Source of the DNA: an uncultured Bacteroidia bacterium
GTDB taxonomy: Bacteria; Bacteroidota; Bacteroidia; Bacteroidales; UBA932
Assembly: GCA_902778855.1 (NCBI GenBank)
Contig: CACYZM010000016.1
Span: 1 to 41,105, forward strand
DNA: 41,105 nt
Reading direction: 5' to 3'
Positions 14,531 through 34,242 of the stretch are shown one piece after another (positions within the stretch are counted from its first letter, which is position 1; each line of letters opens with the position of its first letter). The translations under genes were made by a program, and so were the position numbers. The notes beneath the pieces were generated by a model. That model saw nothing but the letters and a program-made list of their open reading frames with translations, did no database searches and was not told the origin of the DNA.

Positions 14531-15865
14531 ATGGATCCCCTGCTGGCCATCTCGCCCGTCGACGGGCGCTATGCCGCCAAGACGGCTGAACTTTCCGCAT
14601 TCTTTTCGGAATATGCCCTGATGCGCTACCGCGTTCTCGTGGAAGTGGAGTATTTCATCGCCCTGTGCGAACTCCCGCTTCCCCAGCTCGCGGAAGTGGA
14701 TCCGGCCTGTTTCCCCGCCCTTCGGGCCATCTACGGCGATTTCACGACCGAAGACGCCGCCCGCATCAAGGAAATCGAGGCCCGGACCAACCACGACGTG
14801 AAAGCCGTGGAGTATTTCCTCAAGGAACGCTTCCCCGCCCTGGGGCTGGAAGCGTATATGGAATTCATCCATTTCGGCCTCACTTCGCAGGACATCAACA
14901 ACACGGCCACGCCGCTGTCGCTGAAGGAAGCTCTGGCGGAGGTCTACGTGCCGGCCCTGCGCGAACTGATCGCCATGCTCGACGAGCGCGCCGCCCTCTG
15001 GGCCGACGTGCCGATGCTGGCCCACACGCACGGCCAGCCCGCCTCGCCTACGCGCCTGGGCAAGGAACTCAAGGTGTTCGTGGTCCGGCTCAAGGAGCAG
15101 CTGCGGCAGCTGGACGCCTGCACCTACCCCGGCAAGTTCGGCGGTGCGACGGGCAACCTCAACGCCCACTACGCCGCGTATCCCGACATCGACTGGAACG
15201 ATTTCGCCGAGAACTTCGTGGCCTCGCTGGGCCTGAAGCGCTCCTGGCCCACCACCCAGATCGACCACTACGACAATCTGGCCACCATCTTCGACGCGCT
15301 GCGCCGCATCGACACGGTGCTCGTGGACCTGAGCCGCGACTGCTGGCTCTATATCTCGATGGATTATTTCTCGCAGGCCATCCGGGCCGGCGAAGTCGGC
15401 TCCTCGACGATGCCGCACAAGGTCAACCCCATCGACTTCGAGAACGCCGAAGGCAACCTCACGCTGGCCAGCGCCATTTTCGACTATCTGTCGTGCAAGC
15501 TGCCGGTGTCGCGCCTGCAGCGCGACCTGACGGACTCCACCGTCCTGCGCAACATCGGCGTCCCCATCGGGCACGCCCTGATCGCGATCCGCTCGCTGGA
15601 AAAGGGAATCGGGAAACTGATCCTCAATGAAGAGAAAGTGTCGGCCGACCTGGAACGCAACTGGGCCGTGGTGGCCGAAGGCATCCAGACCGTGCTGCGC
15701 CGCGAGGGCTATCCGAAGCCCTATGAAACGCTCAAGGCCCTCACCCGCACCGGCGGACACATCTCCCAGGAAGCCATCAGCGCCTTCATCGACACGCTCG
15801 ACGTGTCCGAGGACGTCAAGGCCGAACTCCACGCCATCACGCCCCACAATTACACGGGCCGCTGA
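14531..15865 (+). CDS. purB: Adenylosuccinate lyase PurB
   Basis: 444 residues. PurB removes fumarate from SAICAR and from adenylosuccinate in purine synthesis. The fumarase/aspartase superfamily signature SSTMPHKVNPIDFENAEGN is at about residue 294 and includes the flexible catalytic loop; TSQDINNTATPLSLKEAL and AHTHGQPASPTRLG supply the other conserved active-site regions. Length and the TMPHKVNP variant resemble the E. coli-like branch. It starts just after the infB stop, so it probably reads from the same message. A hairpin terminator follows about 20 bases after its stop. Confidence 0.95.
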   Translation: MDPLLAISPVDGRYAAKTAELSAFFSEYALMRYRVLVEVEYFIALCELPLPQLAEVDPACFPALRAIYGDFTTEDAARIKEIEARTNHDVKAVEYFLKERFPALGLEAYMEFIHFGLTSQDINNTATPLSLKEALAEVYVPALRELIAMLDERAALWADVPMLAHTHGQPASPTRLGKELKVFVVRLKEQLRQLDACTYPGKFGGATGNLNAHYAAYPDIDWNDFAENFVASLGLKRSWPTTQIDHYDNLATIFDALRRIDTVLVDLSRDCWLYISMDYFSQAIRAGEVGSSTMPHKVNPIDFENAEGNLTLASAIFDYLSCKLPVSRLQRDLTDSTVLRNIGVPIGHALIAIRSLEKGIGKLILNEEKVSADLERNWAVVAEGIQTVLRREGYPKPYETLKALTRTGGHISQEAISAFIDTLDVSEDVKAELHAITPHNYTGR

Positions 15866-15876
15866 GGCCGGGGGCA

Positions 15877-15959
15877 TAAAAAGAATTAAGCGTTCATCTG
15901 CCGGAGGTGAACGCTTATTCTTTTTAACCTAAAACTTAACCTATGAAAAAACTATTCGA
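15877..15959 (-). ncRNA. Candidate sigma-54-dependent small RNA, copy B
   Basis: Read on the minus strand, a -24/-12 type promoter (15985-15971) would start RNA near 15959. The transcript contains CGAATAGTTTTTTCATAGG, then two TAGGTTAA repeats 12 bases apart, then a 12-bp hairpin and a T-rich tail, about 82 nt in all. It is almost identical over its 5' half to the element at 21188-21262 on the plus strand, while the hairpin sequence differs. It lies between the convergent purB and cyclophilin genes. No expression evidence exists here, and the same block could act only as the purB terminator plus an unknown repeat. Confidence 0.45.
15878..15925 (+). terminator. Rho-independent terminator after purB (usable on both strands)
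   Basis: Stem AAGCGTTCATCT with AGGTGAACGCTT, 12 pairs with one U-G wobble on the plus strand, loop GCCGG, flanked by AAAAAGAAT and ATTCTTTTT, which can extend the pairing. In the minus direction the wobble becomes a C-A mismatch, so the plus strand (purB) reading forms the better RNA hairpin. Confidence 0.8.
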
Positions 15960-15987
15960 TCGTAGGTTAAGCGAAGACCGTGCCAAA
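15917..15987 (+). repeat. Copy B of a 71-bp element repeated in inverse at 21160-21230
   Basis: 56 bases (15917-15972) are identical to the reverse complement of 21175-21230, and the next 15 differ at three positions, giving 68 of 71 identical. The three changes fall in or next to the spacer between the -24 and -12 boxes of the sigma-54-like promoter read on the other strand. Each copy contains TTAACCTA twice in direct order and once inverted. Confidence 0.9.
15971..15985 (-). promoter_or_regulatory. Sigma-54-like -24/-12 promoter, copy B
   Basis: On the minus strand TGGCACG, four bases (GTCT), then TCGC and TT. GG and GC are 10 bases apart as sigma-54 requires; one base in the -12 box (C for T) departs from TTGC, so it should be weaker than copy A. 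Confidence 0.5.
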
Positions 15988-16000
15988 CTTTTTCCAAACG

Positions 16001-16705
16001 CTACTTTCCAGCGGGCGTGATGGAAATAATCTGCACTTTGTTGAGCGGACGGTCGCGCATGTCGGTGCGCTCCGAGGCGATCTTGTCGATGACCGAGAGG
16101 CCGTCGACCACTTCGCCGAAGATCGTGTATTCGCCGTCGAGGTGCTTGCAGCCTTCCTCATCCTGCACGATGTAGAACTGCGAGCCGGACGATTCCTTGG
16201 CGGGGTTGACCTGGTCGCCGCGGCGGGCGGCCGCCAGGGCGCCTTTCTTGTGGGTCTTGCCGGCGACGATCTCGGCCGGGATGGTGTAACCCGGGCCGCC
16301 CGTGCCGAACTGCGCGATCTTGGAGGAATCCCGGGTGAAGGGATCGCCGCCCTGGATCATGAATCCCCGGATGATCCGGTGGAAGAGCAGGCCGTCGTAA
16401 AAGCCGGACTGGGCCAGTTTGACGAAATTGTCGCGGTGAAGCGGCGTATCGGAGTAGAGTTTGACGGTCATCGTGCCGTCGGTGGTCTTGATCTTGAGCA
16501 TCGGCTCTTCGCCGAGTTCGGCCCACAGGTTGGCGGGCGCTGCAGGGGCTTCGTTCATGGGTTTGATCTCCTTGTTGGGCTCCTCTGTCGTTTCGGTCGT
16601 CGTTTCGTTGGCCGGAAGCGGTTCTTCGGGGCCGGGTTTCTGATTCTTGCAGCCCGTCATCACGAGGGCCGCGGCCAGGAAATAACAGAATAAGCGGTAC
16701 TTCAT
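16001..16705 (-). CDS. Cyclophilin-type peptidyl-prolyl isomerase, lipoprotein
   Basis: 234 residues from the ATG at 16705, chosen over 16729 because MKYRLFCYFLAAALVMTGC is a lipoprotein signal with the acylated Cys at position 19. A Pro/Glu/Thr-rich linker follows, then a cyclophilin domain from about residue 70: FYDGLLFHRIIRGFMIQGGDP (the catalytic Arg in FHR), GSQFYIV and FGEVVDGLSVIDKI. It catalyses cis-trans isomerisation of prolyl bonds and is expected in the periplasm on an envelope membrane. It is transcribed away from the flippase gene, whose promoter region overlaps its leader. Its stop meets the sigma-54 element region. Confidence 0.9.
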   Translation of the reverse strand: MKYRLFCYFLAAALVMTGCKNQKPGPEEPLPANETTTETTEEPNKEIKPMNEAPAAPANLWAELGEEPMLKIKTTDGTMTVKLYSDTPLHRDNFVKLAQSGFYDGLLFHRIIRGFMIQGGDPFTRDSSKIAQFGTGGPGYTIPAEIVAGKTHKKGALAAARRGDQVNPAKESSGSQFYIVQDEEGCKHLDGEYTIFGEVVDGLSVIDKIASERTDMRDRPLNKVQIISITPAGK

Positions 16706-16746
16706 AGGAATGTTTTTTTCCAATCCCAAAATTAGTGATTATTTCG

Positions 16747-16754
16747 TAAATTTG
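16747..16754 (+). promoter_or_regulatory. -7 box TAAATTTG before the flippase gene
   Basis: Exact TAnnTTTG match 21 bases before the GTG start at 16776. Only a T-run is present near the -33 position. A transcription start near 16760 would exclude the ATG at 16710 and supports the GTG start. Confidence 0.5.
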
Positions 16755-16775
16755 TCTGTTAAATCGATCCGTCCC

Positions 16776-18247
16776 GTGGCAAATCCCATCAAACAGCTTG
16801 CCGGTGAAACCGCCATCTATGGCCTGAGCACCATTCTCGCCCGGGTCATCAACTTCGCCCTCGTTCCCCTCTACACGCGCGTCCTCAGCCAGTCGGACTT
16901 CGGGGTCATGTCGGAGTTCATGGCCTACATCGCGATGCTGCAGGTCGTCCTGACGATGGGGCTCGAGACGGGATGCTTCCGCTATGCCACCAAAGAGGGC
17001 GCCGATCCCCGGCAGGTCTTCTCCAACGCCTTCGTCACGGTCTTCGGCCTGTGCGCCGTATTCCTGGCCTGCATGGTCGCCTTCTCGGGCGACATCTCCA
17101 CGGCGATGGGCTATGCCGGGCATTCCAAGCTGATCGTTTACTGCGGCCTGATCCTGTTCCTCGACTGCACCACGGCCATCCTCTTCGCCAAACTCCGGCA
17201 CGAGCACAAGGCCCTCAAGTTCGCGGTCATCAAGACGCTCAAGATCCTTACCGAACTGGGCGTCAACCTGCTGCTCTACCTGGTGATGGCCGCCCGCTTC
17301 GCCGACGGGCAATCGCTCTGGCTCACGCGGTTCGTCAGCGCGACCCCCGACTTCACCTACCCCATCTTCGCCATCCTGGTCAGCTGCATCGTCTGCCTGG
17401 TCCTGATTGCGCCGGAGCTGCTCAAGCTCACCCTCCGGCTCGACCGCAAGCTCATCGGCCGGCTGCTGCTCTACTCCCTGCCGCTGATGATCGCCGGCCT
17501 TCCCGGCATCATGAACGACGTGCTCGACCGCGTGCTGATGCGCTTCTGCAACGCCGATCCCGTGAACTGGCGGGCCGACCTGGGCGTGTACCAGGCCGCC
17601 GTCAAACTGGCCGTGATCATGCAGCTCTTCGTGCAGATGTTCCGCTACGCCGCCGAGCCCTTCTTCTTCCAGCGTGAACGCGAAAAGGGCAGCCGGAAAA
17701 TCTATGCCGACGTGCTCGACTACTTCACGGCCTTCTGCATGTTCGGCTTCGTGCTGCTGATGCTCTTCATGGACGAGATCGGCCTGATCCTGGGCAAGGA
17801 TTTCCGCGTGGGCCTCGACATCACGCCCATCATGCTGATGGCCTACATCATCACCGGCATCCTGTTCAACGTCAACATCTGGTATAAGCTTTCGGAGAAA
17901 ACGGGCTATGCGGTCTGGATCACCCTGGCCGGCCTGGTGGTGACCGTCGTGATCAACGTGATCTTCATGCCGCGCTACTCCTACCACGCCGCCGCGTGGG
18001 GACACGTGGCCAGCTATCTGACCATGCTCGTGCTGACGGCCTGGCTGGGGCGGAAGCACTACCCCATCCCCTATCACTGGGGCGTGGTCTTCCTGCTGGT
18101 CGGCGCGGGACTCGGCGTCTGGGGCCTGAGCCTGCTGCTGCCGGAAATGGGTCTCTGGACAAAAATTTTCATCCATTTGCTCTTCGTACTGCTTTATATT
18201 GCCGCAGCATTTATTATATTTGTAGTTCATAAAAGAAAATCCGCAGC

Positions 18248-18251
<4 letters not shown>
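16776..18251 (+). CDS. Polysaccharide flippase-like membrane protein (MOP/Wzx family)
   Basis: 491 residues. A GTG start at 16776 is preferred to the ATG at 16710: it begins (M)[36 protein letters not shown], the normal start of this family, and lies just after a -7 box. About 12-14 hydrophobic segments run through the protein, with charged loops such as RLDRKLIGR and [10 protein letters not shown]. Family members move lipid-linked sugars across the inner membrane. Here it is joined to dut (ATGA overlap) and murF, a grouping that could suggest a role with cell-wall precursors, but the substrate is unknown. Confidence 0.85.
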
Positions 18252-18679
<428 letters not shown>

Positions 18680-18694
18680 AAAAGGATACGGAAT

Positions 18695-20020
<1,326 letters not shown>

Positions 20021-20027
20021 CGAAATA

Positions 20028-20057
20028 TTTGTATTTCAAAATTTATCCGTATATTTG
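20028..20057 (+). promoter_or_regulatory. Promoter of rpsP-rimM
   Basis: TTTG at 20028-20031, 18 bases, then TATATTTG at 20050-20057, an excellent Bacteroidota promoter. Start expected near 20062, leaving a leader of about 64 bases. Confidence 0.7.
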
Positions 20058-20125
20058 CAGGCCCTTTCTCGAGAAGATAGGGAAGTTAAAATTATTGTAT
20101 TAATTACTAACTTAACGCATTACAA

Positions 20126-20683
20126 ATGGCTGTTAAAATCCGTCTTTCGCGTCACGGCAAGAAGAACTACGCTTACTTCCACATCGTCGTGGCCGATTCA
20201 CGCGCACCGCGTGATGGCCGTCTGATCGAACAGATCGGCCTCTACAACCCGAACACCAACCCCGCTACGATCGTCCTCGACGGCGACAAGGCCCTCGACT
20301 GGCTCAACAAAGGTGCCCAGCCGACCACCACGGCCCGTCGTATCCTCTCCTATGAAGGTGTGATGCTTCGCAAACACCTGCAGGGTGGTGTCGCCAAGGG
20401 CGCTTTCACGCAGGAAGAGGCTGACCGCCGCTACGCTGCCTGGAAGGGCCAGAAAGATTCCAAGCTCGCTTCGAAGAAGCAGACCATCGCCACCGCCGCC
20501 GTGGAAGCCGCCAAGGCTGCCGTGAAGGCTGAGGCCAAGGTCAACCAGGAGCGCGCCGAGGCCATCGCCAAGAAGAAGGCCGAGATCGCCGCTGCCGCTG
20601 AAGCCGCCGCCCGCGAAGCCGCTGAGGCTGCCGCCGCCGCTGCTGCTGAAGCTGAAGCTCCCGCCGAGAATCCGGAAGCGTAA
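20126..20683 (+). CDS. rpsP: 30S ribosomal protein S16 with long Ala/Glu/Lys tail
   Basis: 185 residues. The first about 85 are a standard S16 ([32 protein letters not shown]), which binds 16S rRNA early in 30S assembly. The tail, from about residue 115, is a highly charged Ala-rich helix ([20 protein letters not shown], then poly-Ala/Glu), as is usual in Bacteroidota S16 proteins. rimM begins 7 bases after the stop; the rpsP-rimM pair is conserved widely. Codon choice is more T-rich (GCT, CGT) than in neighbours, consistent with high expression. Confidence 0.96.
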
Positions 20684-20690
20684 TTTCGGG

Positions 20691-21149
20691 ATGAAGGTGC
20701 TGAAGTCCTGGGGTGCCGAGGGGCAGGTCGTCCTGAGCCCCGATGCGGAAGATCCCCGGGATTTGAAGAGTCAGGAACCGGTATTCATCGAATTCGATGG
20801 ACTGCCGGTTCCTTTTTATGTCGAATCCGCCCAGCCGCGGGGCTCCCGCTTCATCGTCAAGTTCGAAGGCGTCGACTCGCTGGCCGAAGCCGAAGAACTG
20901 GTCGGCCGCCTGGTCAGCTTCCAGGAAGGCGACGAGGAAGAGGAAGACTCGCTGGTCGGCCTGCGGGTCCGCGACAGCCGCACCCGCCGCACCATCGGCG
21001 AAATCGTCGACGAGGCCGACTACGGCGGCAACCTGGTCATTACCGTGGAAACCGCCGGCGGCGACGTGCTTCTTCCGATTCACGAAGATCTCATCGTCAG
21101 CATCCACGACGACGTGATCACGCTCGATATTCCTGAAGGTTTATTCTGA
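20691..21149 (+). CDS. rimM: 16S rRNA processing protein RimM
   Basis: 152 residues, slightly short. RimM binds S19 and helps mature the 30S head. The N-terminal barrel begins MKVLKSWGAEGQVVLSP, where the Gly-x-x-Gly corresponds to the usual HGIKGE motif, so about ten N-terminal residues common in the family are missing. The C-terminal PRC-barrel part follows (VGLRVRDSRTRRTIGEIVD, VLLPIHEDLIVSI) and ends in LDIPEGLF, the normal family end. It follows rpsP directly. Just after its stop comes the sigma-54-like promoter of the candidate small RNA. Confidence 0.88.
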   Translation: MKVLKSWGAEGQVVLSPDAEDPRDLKSQEPVFIEFDGLPVPFYVESAQPRGSRFIVKFEGVDSLAEAEELVGRLVSFQEGDEEEEDSLVGLRVRDSRTRRTIGEIVDEADYGGNLVITVETAGGDVLLPIHEDLIVSIHDDVITLDIPEGLF

Positions 21150-21159
21150 GAATTTTAGT

Positions 21160-21230
21160 TTTGGCACGCCCTTTGCTTAACCTACGATCGAATAGTTTTT
21201 TCATAGGTTAAGTTTTAGGTTAAAAAGAAT
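21160..21230 (-). repeat. Copy A of the 71-bp inverted element (partner at 15917-15987)
   Basis: 68 of 71 bases match the reverse complement of the partner, 56 without any difference. Flanks diverge fully just outside the -24 box; on the other side a similar hairpin and CATAAA-like border continue to about 21270. Confidence 0.9.
21162..21178 (+). promoter_or_regulatory. Sigma-54 promoter, perfect -24/-12 match, copy A
   Basis: TGGCACG, four bases (CCCT), TTGCTT: the sigma-54 consensus TGGCACG-n4-TTGCW without a mismatch, GG and GC separated by 10 bases. Transcription would start near 21188. The gene for sigma-54 is in this window at 32836. No enhancer-binding protein gene is seen here. Confidence 0.65.
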
Positions 21231-21262
21231 TAGCGACCCGTTGTGAAACGAGTCGCTTTTTC
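21188..21262 (+). ncRNA. Candidate sigma-54-dependent small RNA, copy A
   Basis: About 75 nt from the predicted start to the T-run after the hairpin. It holds CATAGGTTAA and TTAGGTTAA, two near-identical unpaired repeats 12 bases apart, then A-rich sequence and the terminator hairpin. No reading frame on this strand starts within it. It lies in the convergent gap between rimM and the phosphohexomutase gene, and copy B has the same arrangement between purB and a cyclophilin gene. The arrangement recalls the multi-copy sigma-54-dependent Qrr RNAs of Vibrio, by organisation only. Confidence 0.5.
21232..21262. terminator. Bidirectional hairpin terminator between rimM/sRNA and the phosphohexomutase gene
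   Basis: Arms 21232-21242 and 21247-21257, 11 positions, loop GTGA. On the minus strand it pairs fully with one U-G wobble and is followed by AATTCTTTTT, serving the phosphohexomutase gene. On the plus strand one C-A mismatch occurs and TTTTTCT follows, serving the candidate small RNA. Confidence 0.75.
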
Positions 21263-21280
21263 TATTTATGTACTTCCGGT

Positions 21281-22633
21281 TTAGACGAACTGCTCGATGA
21301 TGGAACGCGCCCGGGCGATCTTCTCTTCCAGAAGCTCGAGGTCCGTGGCCTCGCAGAGGAAGCGGAGGTAAGGTTCCGTATTGGAAGGACGCACGTTGAA
21401 CCACCATTTCGGGAATTCCACGCGATAGCCGTCGAAATCGTAGAAGGCCGTGTGCTTTTCTTCCGCCATGAAGGCGTCCTTCACGGCGTCCATGGCTGCC
21501 TGCTTGTTCTCGACGCGGAAATTGATCTCGCCGGAATTCTCATAGTGCTTGATGCGGGCGACCATCTGCGAGAAGGTGACGCCTTCGCGCTTGAGGCGCG
21601 CCACGATGCCCAGCACGAGGATGCCGGCCAGGATGCCGCTGTCGCAATAGAAGAAGTCGCGGAAATAGTAGTGGCCGGCCACTTCGCCGCCCCATACGCC
21701 GTCGAGTTCCCGCAGGCGCGGCGCGGCAAACGCGCGTCCCACCTTCCACATAGCGATTTTGGCACCCAGCGGCTCGAGGTACTCGGCCACCGACTTGGAG
21801 CTGCGGATATCCTGCAGCACGATGCCGTTCTCCCCTTTCTCCTTGATGAAATACTCGCCCAGCAGCGCGATGATCAGGTCGGGCGCGATGAAGCGGCCCG
21901 TCTCGTCGATGAACATCACGCGGTCGGCGTCGCCGTCGTAGATGACGCCGACATCGCATTTCTCGGCGATGACCAGCCGCTGGAGGTCCACCACGTTCTC
22001 CGGCTGGAACGGATTGGCCTCGTGGTTGGGGAAGCTGCCGTCGAGGGTATCGTAGAGATAGAGGGGCTGTTCGCCGAAAATCTGATGCACGAAGATGGAA
22101 GCCATGCCGTTGGAGCAGTCCATGGCGATCTTCAGGTTGGAGAAGTCCTTCTTGAAGGCATTGAGGAATTCAACGTATTCCTCCCGAACGTCGAAATCGT
22201 GGACCGTGCCGCGCTGCGGCTGCACGGGCGTGGGACGTTCTTCGAGGATCCAGCGCTCGATGGTCTGCAGGCCGGAGTCGTAGCCGACCGGCAGGGCCAG
22301 TTCGCGGGAGATTTTCAGGCCGTTGTCTTCCTTGGGGTTGTGCGAGGCGGTGATCTGGATGGAGGCCTTGAAACCGTGGCGGGCCGTGACGTAGTAGACG
22401 AACGGGGTGGTGCTCAGGCCGAGGTCCCAAACTTCGGCGCCGGCATCGAGCAGGCCGCGGAGAACCGCTTCGTGCAGGGCGGGAGAGGAAAGCCGCATGT
22501 CGCGGCCCAGCAGGATACGGTGGGTATCGAGCAGCTCGGGAAGGAAGTACGCCACTTTGTAGGCGAGCTCTTCCGTCAGGTCCGTGCCGAAGTGGCCCCG
22601 GATGTCGTAAGCGTGGAATGCTTTCAGTTTCAT
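21281..22633 (-). CDS. Phosphomannomutase/phosphoglucomutase
   Basis: 450 residues from the ATG at 22633 (MKLKAFHAYDIRGHFG); the frame extends to 22660 but that would run into def. It interconverts hexose 6- and 1-phosphates, feeding nucleotide-sugar synthesis for surface glycans. The phosphoserine loop ITASHNP has the catalytic Ser at 97, the metal loop DGDADR is at about 233-238, and GGEVAGHYYFRDFF is the sugar-binding loop. The C-terminal phosphate-binding loop has RPSNTEPYLRF. Whether it prefers mannose or glucose phosphates (ManB, AlgC-like) cannot be told. It is third in the ruvX-def group. Confidence 0.92.
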   Translation of the reverse strand: MKLKAFHAYDIRGHFGTDLTEELAYKVAYFLPELLDTHRILLGRDMRLSSPALHEAVLRGLLDAGAEVWDLGLSTTPFVYYVTARHGFKASIQITASHNPKEDNGLKISRELALPVGYDSGLQTIERWILEERPTPVQPQRGTVHDFDVREEYVEFLNAFKKDFSNLKIAMDCSNGMASIFVHQIFGEQPLYLYDTLDGSFPNHEANPFQPENVVDLQRLVIAEKCDVGVIYDGDADRVMFIDETGRFIAPDLIIALLGEYFIKEKGENGIVLQDIRSSKSVAEYLEPLGAKIAMWKVGRAFAAPRLRELDGVWGGEVAGHYYFRDFFYCDSGILAGILVLGIVARLKREGVTFSQMVARIKHYENSGEINFRVENKQAAMDAVKDAFMAEEKHTAFYDFDGYRVEFPKWWFNVRPSNTEPYLRFLCEATDLELLEEKIARARSIIEQFV

Positions 22634-22637
22634 GGGT

Positions 22638-23198
22638 TTATTTTTTGTCTGTCTTGACACGGTAACGGGTGCGGACGTTGCCCCGGGTGATGTTCATCAG
22701 TTTCCCGGTCAGCATTTTCCGCCGGATGGGCGAGGCGTGGTCGGTGAACAGGATGCCGTCGAGGTGGTCCATTTCGTGCTGGATCATCCGGGCGGCGAAG
22801 CCGGTGAATTCCTCCTCCACCTCTTCGAAATCGAGGTTCAGGTAGCGGACCCGGATGGTTTCCGGGCGGGTGATGTCGGCGTCGACGTTCGGGATGCTCA
22901 GGCAGCCTTCCTCATAGGAGCAGGTCTTTTCGCTTTCGAACGTGAAGCTGGGATTGATCATCTCGCGGTGGAAGCCTTTCAACTCGGGATAGCGGTCGGC
23001 CAGGTCGTCGCCGTCGACCACGAGGATGCGTTTGGAAACGCCCACCTGCGGGGCGGCCAGGCCGCATCCGTCGGCGTGGTGCATGGTGTCGACCATGTCG
23101 GCGATGAAGGTTTTGAGCCAAGCCTTGTCGGAAAGGTCGTCCTCCTGGGCGGGGGTCCGCAGGACCTGGGAGCCATACAGATAAATCGGTAGGATCAT
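22638..23198 (-). CDS. def: Peptide deformylase
   Basis: 186 residues. It removes the formyl group from the N-terminal Met of new proteins. The three metal-enzyme motifs are GCGLAAPQVG (44-53), EGCLS (97-101, Cys ligand) and QHEMDHLDG (140-148, His ligands and catalytic Glu). It overlaps the ruvX stop in an ATGA, and the phosphohexomutase start lies 4 bases after its stop, so the three are likely translated in a chain. Confidence 0.96.
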   Translation of the reverse strand: MILPIYLYGSQVLRTPAQEDDLSDKAWLKTFIADMVDTMHHADGCGLAAPQVGVSKRILVVDGDDLADRYPELKGFHREMINPSFTFESEKTCSYEEGCLSIPNVDADITRPETIRVRYLNLDFEEVEEEFTGFAARMIQHEMDHLDGILFTDHASPIRRKMLTGKLMNITRGNVRTRYRVKTDKK

Positions 23199-32363: not shown

Positions 32364-32836
32364 CCCTGAAATTCCATAGAATCGTCATCCTGGCAGCCGC
32401 CCTGCTTCTCTCGCTCAACGCTTTCGCCCAAAACGCGCCGGTCGACAGCACGATGCTGGGCGCCGACGTCCTGACGCTCATCTCCCAGAAGGGCAAAGGC
32501 AGCGCCACCGTCAACCAGTCCATCGAAATCCGCAACGCGCTCTCGCGCCACATCGTGGCCAACAGCAACAAGAAAATGCAGGGCTACCGCGTCCGCATCT
32601 TCTTCGGCAACGACCGCACCGCCCGCGCGAAATCGGAATCCATCGCCGCCGCCTTCTCGGAGCGCTATCCCAACATCCGCGTCTACCGCAGCCACGTCAG
32701 CCCCTATTTCAAGGTGACGGTGGGTGATTTCCGCACCCACGCCGACGCGCAGCGCTTCGCCACCCGGCTGACGAACAGCGGCGCCTACCAGACCGCCTTC
32801 GTGGTCAAGGAACAAATCAACTATCCCGGCTTCTGA
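32360..32836 (+). CDS. SPOR domain periplasmic protein
   Basis: 158 residues. A signal peptide (ILAAALLLSLNAFAQ) is followed by a short helical part and a SPOR domain at about 75-150: YRVRIFFGNDRTARAKSESIAAAF, then YPNIRVYRSHVSPYFKVTVGDF and ADAQRFATRL. SPOR domains bind peptidoglycan lacking stem peptides and are often found at division sites. Start overlaps the LEA-like stop in an ATGA; the stop overlaps the rpoN start (TGATG). Confidence 0.87.
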   Translation: MTLKFHRIVILAAALLLSLNAFAQNAPVDSTMLGADVLTLISQKGKGSATVNQSIEIRNALSRHIVANSNKKMQGYRVRIFFGNDRTARAKSESIAAAFSERYPNIRVYRSHVSPYFKVTVGDFRTHADAQRFATRLTNSGAYQTAFVVKEQINYPGF

Positions 32837-34242
32837 TGCTCAAGCAGACCCAACAACTCAAGCAGACCCAGAGGCTCTCCCCGCTGCAGATCCAGACCAT
32901 CAAGTTGATCGAACTGCCTGCACCGGAGCTGGAACAGCGTATCCAGAAGGAGCTCGAGGAGAATCCGATCCTTGAGGAAGTCGTGGACGATTCCCCGGAA
33001 GGGGAAGAGAAGAAGAACGTCTCGCTCAGCGAATACAGCGGCAGCGACCCCACGCCGTCGTACAAACTCTACGTCAACAACCAGGGCAAGGACCTCAAGC
33101 CCCAGTACAATACCTTCTCCGTCCGGGAGAGTTTCCACCAGAGCCTCGAGACCCAGCTGGGCTATTGCAAGATCGACGAGCGCCAGCGGCAGATCGCCCA
33201 GTTCATCATCGGCATGATCGACGACGACGGCTACCTGCGCCGCGACCTGGAAGCCCTGGCCGACGACATCTCCTTCCGCCTCGGCATCGAGACCGATGAA
33301 AACGAAGTGGAGGAACTGCTCCACCTCATCCAGGAATTCGACCCGGTCGGCGTCGGCGCCCGCGACCTGCGCGAGTGCCTGCTGCTCCAGCTCGAAGCCA
33401 AGAAGCAGACCGAACCGGTCGAACTGGCCACCCGCATCCTGCGCGACCACTTCACCGAATTCACCAAAAAGCACTACGCGAAAATCACCGCCAAACTGAA
33501 CATCTCGGAAGATCAGCTCAAGGAAGCCGTCACCGAGATCGTGCGGCTCAACCCGCGTCCGGGCGGTCAGATCGACGACTCCTATACCGAGCAGATCCAG
33601 CAGGTCGTTCCCGACTTCCTGGTCGAACTCAAGGACGGCGAGCCCGTGATGTCAATGCCCCGCTTCTCCGTTCCCGAGCTGAAAGTCAACAAACGCTACG
33701 CCGACGTCCTGATGGAAGCCGTGGGCAGCGCCACCCGGGAAAAGAAGGAAGCGGCCACGTTCGTCAAGCAGAAGCTCGATTCGGCCAAATGGTTCATCGA
33801 GGCCATCAAGCAGCGCCACAACACGCTGCAGAACACGATGAACGCCATCATCGACTACCAGCACGACTACTTCATCGACGGCGACGAGACCCGGCTCAAA
33901 CCGATGGTCCTGCGCAACATCGCCGAGAAGACCGGGCTCGACATCTCGACCATCTCGCGCGTGGTCAACTGCAAATACGTGCAGACGCACTTCGGCATCT
34001 ATCCGCTCAAGTATTTCTTCTCGGAAGGCCTGGTGGCCAACGATGGCGAAGAAGTCTCGACCCGCGAGATCAAGACCATCCTGACCGACAGCATCGCCGA
34101 AGAAGACAAGCGCAAACCGCTCACCGACGAAGAACTGGTCGCCGTCCTCGCGGAAAAAGGATACAAAGTAGCCCGTCGCACCGTGGCCAAGTACCGCGAG
34201 CAGCTCAACATCCCCATCGCCCGGCTCCGGAAAGAACTCTAA
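32836..34242 (+). CDS. rpoN: RNA polymerase sigma-54 factor RpoN
   Basis: 468 residues. Sigma-54 directs polymerase to -24/-12 promoters and needs an ATP-driven activator. Region I at the N terminus is Gln/Leu-rich (LKQTQRLSPLQIQTIKLIEL, EENPILEE). The core-binding and helix-turn-helix parts follow, and the RpoN box ARRTVAKYRE is at about 446-455 near the C terminus, so the protein is complete and should read the usual TGGCACG-n4-TTGC sites. It shares a base with the SPOR gene. Perfect and near-perfect sites of this kind are found at 21162 and 15985 in this window. Confidence 0.96.
   Translation: MLKQTQQLKQTQRLSPLQIQTIKLIELPAPELEQRIQKELEENPILEEVVDDSPEGEEKKNVSLSEYSGSDPTPSYKLYVNNQGKDLKPQYNTFSVRESFHQSLETQLGYCKIDERQRQIAQFIIGMIDDDGYLRRDLEALADDISFRLGIETDENEVEELLHLIQEFDPVGVGARDLRECLLLQLEAKKQTEPVELATRILRDHFTEFTKKHYAKITAKLNISEDQLKEAVTEIVRLNPRPGGQIDDSYTEQIQQVVPDFLVELKDGEPVMSMPRFSVPELKVNKRYADVLMEAVGSATREKKEAATFVKQKLDSAKWFIEAIKQRHNTLQNTMNAIIDYQHDYFIDGDETRLKPMVLRNIAEKTGLDISTISRVVNCKYVQTHFGIYPLKYFFSEGLVANDGEEVSTREIKTILTDSIAEEDKRKPLTDEELVAVLAEKGYKVARRTVAKYREQLNIPIARLRKEL

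Follow-up and report, generated by a model that had tools for sequence, protein, structure and literature searches.

The 41,105-nucleotide (nt) window analyzed here (GenBank assembly GCA_902778855.1, contig CACYZM010000016.1) belongs to a Bacteroidales metagenome-assembled genome of 2.4 Mb and 98% completeness, whose family (f1, which we take to be UBA932 in GTDB) includes Candidatus Cryptobacteroides. The window contains two inverted elements that probably represent paralogous genes, transcribed by sigma-54 RNA polymerase, whose product is a trans-acting homolog of the small RNA FopS of Bacteroides. FopS was described in 2025 as a small RNA that is driven by the canonical sigma factor, is bound by the protein RbpB and is reported to repress SusC translation in Bacteroides (PMC11697453). 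In the window copies, as read from the DNA, the canonical sigma-ABfr promoter of FopS is replaced by sigma-54 boxes. The kind of RNA is already known from FopS; new, on the present sequence comparison, are the change of sigma factor and the persistence of the RNA in many genomes without an RRM_1 (RbpB-type) protein.

Each element has a sigma-54 promoter of the type TGGCAC..TTGC, with GG and GC 10 bases apart, which is conserved across relatives. Copy 2 carries it at 21162..21177 on the plus strand (TGGCACGCCCTTTGCT, that is, TGGCACG-CCCT-TTGCT, itself conserved in relatives) and copy 1 at 15970..15985 on the minus strand (TGGCACGGTCTTCGCT, that is, TGGCACG-GTCT-TCGCT, reading from 15985 to 15970). 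An initial annotation of the window had placed the two copies here, with this box spacing and with predicted starts at 21188 (+) and 15959 (-). Our analysis agrees on all these points, and 12 bases past the C of the -12 box lead to the same two starts. Transcripts from these starts would comprise approximately 75 nt in copy 2 (21188..21262, plus strand, inferred 5' end) and approximately 82 nt in copy 1 (15878..15959, minus strand), each predicted to fold into an open 5' part that holds the seed GUUUUUUCAUAGGUUAAGUUUUAGGUUAA and an intrinsic terminator. The seed occupies 21195..21223 (+) in copy 2, where it consists of GTTTTTTCAT, the complement of ATGAAAAAAC, and two TAGGTTAA repeats, and 15924..15952 (-) in copy 1. 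The terminators lie at 21232..21262 (+, stem 21232-21257) and 15878..15916 (-, stem 15916-15888), with a T-run after each stem.

Could such elements occur by chance? When one mismatch to TGGCACGNNNNTNGCW is allowed, the two promoters are the only matches in the window, both of them exact, and shuffled sequence yields a mean of 1.7 matches, so that the boxes alone are within chance. A regulon scan at one mismatch from the strict sigma-54 consensus returns the two copies and two poor sites, compared with 3 in the reversed control. It is the repeats and the conservation that set the elements beyond chance: all six occurrences of TAGGTTAA in the window fall inside the two elements (0.16 expected), and the 19 invariant columns of 57 related sequences all lie between the T-run and the second AGGTTA. 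The two elements are also the only matches to each other in a DNA search of the genome at E 0.001.

The best Rfam match of both copies is RF04319 (FopS), which aligns on the predicted strand over model positions 1-71 of 71 (Rfam scan: copy 1, 31.6 bits, 15876-15952, E 0.085; copy 2, 31.0 bits, 21195-21266, E 0.11). Over the whole genome, the two copies rank highest among the RF04319 matches, again at full length (E 0.0077 and 0.0106). Because this forward direction alone is weak, we base homology on the reverse comparison with R1, a covariance model that was built from the transcript columns of 57 sigma-54-type copies and includes no RF04319 locus. In a search of 136 kb, R1 recovers 30 of 30 RF04319 loci, all at E 0.007 or lower. 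Of these loci, 23 exceed the RF04319 cut-off; loci over this cut-off occur in 19 of 119 sampled genomes of the order. The window copies, which are both in the model, score 82.1 bits (copy 2, 21189-21272) and 81.9 bits (copy 1, 15874-15958). R1 also gives 29.7 bits to a third, diverged FopS-like candidate paralog in the same genome (G000:C5:2929-3011, or L054:1499-1581), which has the sigma-54-like TGGCATATGTTTTGCA upstream; a same-strand reading frame downstream of this candidate opens with a signal-peptide-like sequence.

The loci can also be compared in layout. FopS loci consist of a TAnnTTTG box, a stretch such as GTGTTTTTCATGGTATTAGATTTAAGGTTAA and a terminator, and the window RNA has GTTTTTTCATAGGTTAAGTTTTAGGTTAA followed by a terminator. 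FopS of Bacteroides thetaiotaomicron shares with the window RNA an open 5' seed (GUUUUUCAU..AGGUUAA) before an intrinsic terminator, several copies per genome and a full-length match in both search directions. It differs in its seed, which reads GGUAUUAG..AAGGUUAA instead of UAGGUUAA twice, and in copy number, with 12-15 copies reported in Bacteroides (PMC11697453) against three in the window genome. By these comparisons, the window RNA is a FopS homolog that lies outside RF04319 as Rfam defines that family. Given a short T-rich seed and a homology drawn from model searches without a tree, convergence is formally conceivable. The initial annotation proposed a new small RNA family under sigma-54; the sigma-54 boxes are indeed conserved, in 33 of 39 family copies, and the proposal of a new family is not supported, the RNA being homologous to FopS.

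Promoter type differs between lineages at the level of sequence. The 39 distinct copies were picked within the family without use of the promoter, from 40 hand-picked places in the middle of the R1 matches listed, and the 48 bases upstream were scored; copies from L392 and L401 are absent. The 33 copies with sigma-54 boxes comprise 29 with these boxes alone and 4 that also have the TAnnTTTG word, and letter-shuffled upstream regions attain their score in 7 of 7800 cases. Some bias may remain in this count, given that the copies used to train R1 were of the sigma-54 type, although the model itself excludes the promoter. Among the best 30 R1 matches, 32 copies were read, of which 28 score 13 or more for the sigma-54 boxes. 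An earlier tabulation held 64 copies, 60 of them at a score of 12 or more; since part of its copies came from a search with a query that contained the promoter, the 39-copy count is the fairer one. Two loci (L008 and L048) were dropped from that table, with no terminator found and a contig end soon after, and copies missed by the seed expression (e.g. L030, L034, L035, L039, L042, L044 and L054) lie outside it.

Outside the family, TAnnTTTG precedes 24 of the 27 copies read from 30 RF04319 loci (L124 has sigma-54-like boxes as well), and the other 3 have neither box type. A further 22 R1 copies, read from 25 loci, include 8 with TAnnTTTG, 14 with neither by a strict rule and none with sigma-54 boxes. 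L320 is among the unread loci, and a separate reading gave the near-match TGGCACAGATATTGTA. The TAnnTTTG promoters of relatives point to Bacteroidales and speak against an affiliation with Desulfovibrio, which had been considered on account of the sigma-54 promoters. A further form, TTTTTTCATAGTTAAGGTTTAGGTTAA followed by a terminator, was observed in several genomes of the order outside the family (L317, L318, L321, L326 and L328-L335); L317, L318, L321, L326 and L335 gave no Rfam match up to E 0.1.

What would such an RNA do? We propose that sigma-54 RNA polymerase, aided by an enhancer-binding activator, would start at the two predicted positions and produce an RNA of 75-82 nt. Its seed would pair with the translation start (GUUUUUUCAU against AUGAAAAAAC) and, through the two UAGGUUAA repeats that follow, with UUAACCUA or ACCU in 5' leaders. 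While the sigma-54 signal is on, the RNA would mask the starts of mRNAs for exported and outer-membrane proteins and prevent their translation, with TonB-dependent (SusC-type) receptors as the foremost targets.

Part of the genomic evidence is consistent with this proposal. The seed is the complement of the translation start UUAACCUAAAACUUAACCUAUGAAAAAAC. The complement of the seed repeats, TTAACCTA, has nine non-self sites in the genome, four of which lie just before a start codon whose ATG opens an open reading frame of 100 codons or more; for 559 permuted 8-mers in a 441 kb sample, 211 of 2749 sites do so (7.7%; binomial P 0.003). The four genes encode TonB-dependent receptors (L356 and L367; Plug domain), a POR-type oxidoreductase (L360) and a GNAT-domain protein (L358). 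Predicted pairing reaches -30.6 kcal/mol at L367, and of 300 partly shuffled RNAs, 2 pair as well at L356, 5 at L367, 1 at L360, 1 at L358 and 66 at L370, although these duplex energies are partly circular because the sites were chosen for the complement. The permutation test took the place of a start-codon search (21 sites, of which 18 remain once both copies and the third paralog are set aside; 1 in the reversed control), which was an unfair test because AUGAAAAA is common at the starts of exported proteins. At 10 of the 14 start-codon sites read, the frame opens with a signal-peptide-like sequence by eye, with five sites unread. CCT directly precedes ATGAAR in 6 of 76 cases and other ATG starts in 4 of 242, a post hoc observation that is not relied on. 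Repression of TonB receptors is supported by two sites and, by analogy, by the published behavior of FopS, and not by a genome-wide signal. Taken by itself, the proposal that TonB receptors are the targets is in our judgment evenly balanced between right and wrong.

Several results weigh against the interpretation of the elements as sigma-54-transcribed FopS-type genes. Concerning homology, both copies stay at approximately 31 bits and do not reach the RF04319 gathering score of 56 bits, which sets them apart from FopS. RF04319 does not call the window genome at E 0.001, and at a lax threshold it also yields matches in control genomes (8 of 14). An Rfam scan of 20 loci at E 0.1 reports RF04319 only in L313 and L124, both outside the family, and the seven of these 20 loci that hold family copies (L019, L041, L054, L165, L169, L178 and L188) have no Rfam match at E 0.1. 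Concerning the promoter, TAnnTTTG is the only box type in 4 of the 39 family copies, and 2 lack both types. Copies that keep the repeat and lose the boxes, which the initial annotation regarded as evidence against its proposal, thus occur both in the family and among the FopS-type loci outside it. The box-less copies argue for promoter exchange and not for a lack of transcription, because the TAnnTTTG box in three of the four copies (L383, L387 and L413) ends 2-4 bases before the same start that is predicted for sigma-54 copies. In L188 (G319:C40, genus g62), a sigma-54 copy and a TATATTTG copy stand in tandem, 596 bases apart (913 and 1509). From the distribution of the boxes, it is likely that the promoter type was exchanged at least once while the RNA stayed fixed. 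The FopS authors state in general that paralogous small RNAs may fall under different sigma factors and report no strong sign of this within FopS (PMC11697453).

Further points on the unfavorable side concern structure, pairing and protein factors. The consensus fold is shallow (-2.0 kcal/mol), and each of its pairs is broken in 4-14 of the 57 sequences, partly because stems of different length were aligned together. Double changes in 6 of 6 consensus pairs count in favor of the stem, and the hairpin sequence is free to vary. TTAACCTA is not over-represented in the genome, where it has 15 sites and the reversed word 23. One permuted word, ATATTCCA, did better than TTAACCTA in the 441 kb sample (3 of 5 sites versus 2 of 4). 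Over 318 starts of the same sample, pairing shows no excess over RNAs with a shuffled 3' seed half, with 9 starts versus 10.5 for shuffled RNAs at -18 kcal/mol and 3 versus 1.1 at -22 kcal/mol, the latter reached in 21 of 200 shuffles. Given that the RNA with its 3' half shuffled pairs as well, the anti-AUGAAAAAA part explains most of the predicted pairing. Counts of word pairs in upstream regions (116 left after dereplication of 141) revealed no shared upstream activator site: the word pairs found were ppi coding sequence, and after removal of 29 such regions the remaining 87 gave A-rich words and TGGAnnTTCC, which were read as gene-end coding sequence. Finally, no RRM_1 protein was found in the window genome at its 98% completeness, so that the Bacteroides partner of FopS is missing.

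The pairing results bring up a rival in which the same small RNA acts mainly as a protein-binding RNA or sponge, its two AGGUUA repeats holding a protein with no mRNA pairing. Such a function would suit the position of the repeats within the most conserved part and the negative test over 318 starts; it leaves aside the perfect complement of AUGAAAAAAC in the seed and the enrichment of TTAACCTA before start codons (4 of 9 against 7.7% for permuted 8-mers), FopS is reported to pair with susC mRNA (PMC11697453), and the published partner type, RRM_1, is the very protein that the window genome was found to lack. We therefore consider the sponge improbable and favor the pairing small RNA.

A second rival holds that the elements are DNA operators or bidirectional terminators between convergent genes, with no small RNA of their own. 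In its favor, TTAACCTA..TAGGTTAA forms an inverted repeat, and T-rich stretches stand on both sides of the hairpins. The hairpin was initially described as pairing better on the opposite strand, which is true of copy 1 (-20.3 kcal/mol on the reading strand versus -26.4 on the other) and not of copy 2, where the strands tie; among 62 distinct copies, folding favors the reading strand in 39 and the opposite strand in 20, with 3 equal. Within the two-copy clade, 26 of 28 copies keep AACCT in the spacer, as do 7 of 29 other copies near it, but it is in the spacer of 0 of 39 wider-family copies, where 33 keep the sigma-54 boxes and the seed stays. Moreover, a bare terminator would need no -24/-12 boxes, and published FopS homologs are expressed (PMC11697453). 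An operator or terminator without its own transcript is accordingly very improbable beside a sigma-54-transcribed small RNA gene.

The RNA genes are widely distributed in the family. The covariance-model search of relatives that the initial annotation recommended gives R1 matches in 192 of 198 family genomes, with 1-6 matches in nearly all of them and 10 in G338, and in 60 of 295 genomes of the order at E 1e-4, five of the 60 from the family itself. All 15 two-copy genomes examined have a copy after ppi and a copy after rimM. The spacer between the -12 box and the seed is 89% identical within a genome versus 68% between genomes at the same locus, and 0 of 10,000 partner shuffles reach this likeness (15 genomes; includes L060-L073). 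The simplest account suggested by these alignments is concerted evolution through gene conversion between inverted copies approximately 5.2 kb apart, which would also explain why the similarity between the window copies stops at the -24 box, as had been noticed at the outset. A mobile or selfish repeat, similar to repetitive extragenic palindromes (REP) or miniature inverted-repeat transposable elements (MITE) and with the promoter match as part of the repeat, would account for an inverted pair, separated by 5.2 kb, whose members resemble each other more within a genome than between genomes, but it is the least credible rival given only two copies and one diverged candidate in the window genome, the low numbers per family genome, the fixed places after ppi and rimM, hairpins that differ in sequence and keep their stem, and a within-genome likeness that fits gene conversion of fixed copies.

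Both copies lie in gaps between convergent genes, in agreement with the initial annotation, and each runs towards the convergent gene. Copy 1 follows ppi (cyclophilin, 16001..16729, minus strand, Pfam Pro_isomerase) and faces purB (adenylosuccinate lyase, 14531..15865, plus strand, Pfam Lyase_1 and ASL_C). Copy 2 follows rimM (20691..21149, plus strand, Pfam RimM) and faces a phosphoglucomutase/phosphomannomutase gene (PGM, 21281..22660, minus strand, Pfam PGM_PMM domains). The rpsP frame at 20126-20683 encodes 185 amino acids, of which residues 9-67 only match Pfam S16, and has a long C-terminal extension.

The sigma factor required by the proposed mechanism is encoded in the window: rpoN, recognized from the start at 32836, spans 32836..34242 on the plus strand and contains three Pfam sigma-54 domains. 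The genome also encodes three strong sigma-54 activator-domain matches and four weak ones. One of the strong activators has a receiver and a helix-turn-helix (HTH) domain, one has an HTH without a receiver found, and one has receiver, AAA and lid domains without an HTH. The HTH-less activator (L155:1090-2250; G000:C33), whose neighbor reads by eye like the GTPase gene der, would need no upstream site and may act at these promoters. As for the RNA partner, RRM_1 proteins occur in 16 of the 20 genera of the family and 62 of its 198 genomes, so that their absence is concentrated. By our own table count, they are present in 1 of approximately 113 Cryptobacteroides genomes (g62; G269) and in 5 of 13 genomes of the window's genus (g1). 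At least 130 genomes would have the RNA without RRM_1 if both surveys drew the same 198 genomes, as their equal size and shared handles suggest.

Among known systems, GibS (RF04182) is related through the R1 seed that is common to GibS and FopS (PMC11697453). It matches the window copies very weakly (23.7 bits versus 115) and differs in its second seed, R2, and its longer model of 142 positions. The GibS promoter, PM2, was considered as a sigma-54 promoter and ruled out, as it is near-palindromic with -10/-30 boxes (PMC7366714). In Flavobacterium psychrophilum, sigma-54 promoters are reported before chaperone, envelope-stress and gliding genes (PMC9723704). Our literature search, which covered few subscription journals and no bioRxiv preprints, found no report of Cryptobacteroides small RNAs or of any small RNA that is driven by sigma-54 in Bacteroides or Bacteroidota.

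More distant parallels are functional. The Qrr small RNAs of Vibrio are multi-copy small RNAs transcribed from sigma-54 promoters; the parallel drawn to them initially is an analogy at most, with no Qrr among 10 Rfam matches up to E 10. RybB and MicA of Escherichia coli are Hfq-dependent, sigma-E-controlled small RNAs that block the translation of outer-membrane proteins. By analogy, their path from an alternative sigma factor through small RNAs to a translational block of outer-membrane proteins is the logic proposed here, although the sigma factor is of another class and the sequence comparison consists of the Rfam scan only. We tentatively suggest, as a possibility less likely than not, that an anti-start-codon RNA of the FopS type passed in the Cryptobacteroides family from control by the housekeeping sigma factor to control by sigma-54, that it can work without RbpB and that it gives Bacteroidota a counterpart of sigma-E/RybB-MicA. 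One envelope signal, acting through sigma-54, would then stop the translation of TonB receptors and other exported proteins together, and paralogs with a housekeeping promoter, such as that in L188, would keep a basal level.

These observations place a promoter of another sigma class, with much the same predicted start, on genes of the FopS type across an uncultured family from gut and rumen. The RNA persists without RRM_1 chiefly in Cryptobacteroides and in part of the window's genus, which makes it possible to ask in natural genomes to what extent RbpB is required, and the family offers a series for the study of promoter exchange on a fixed small RNA. Sigma-54 in gut Bacteroidales would thereby gain a concrete output.

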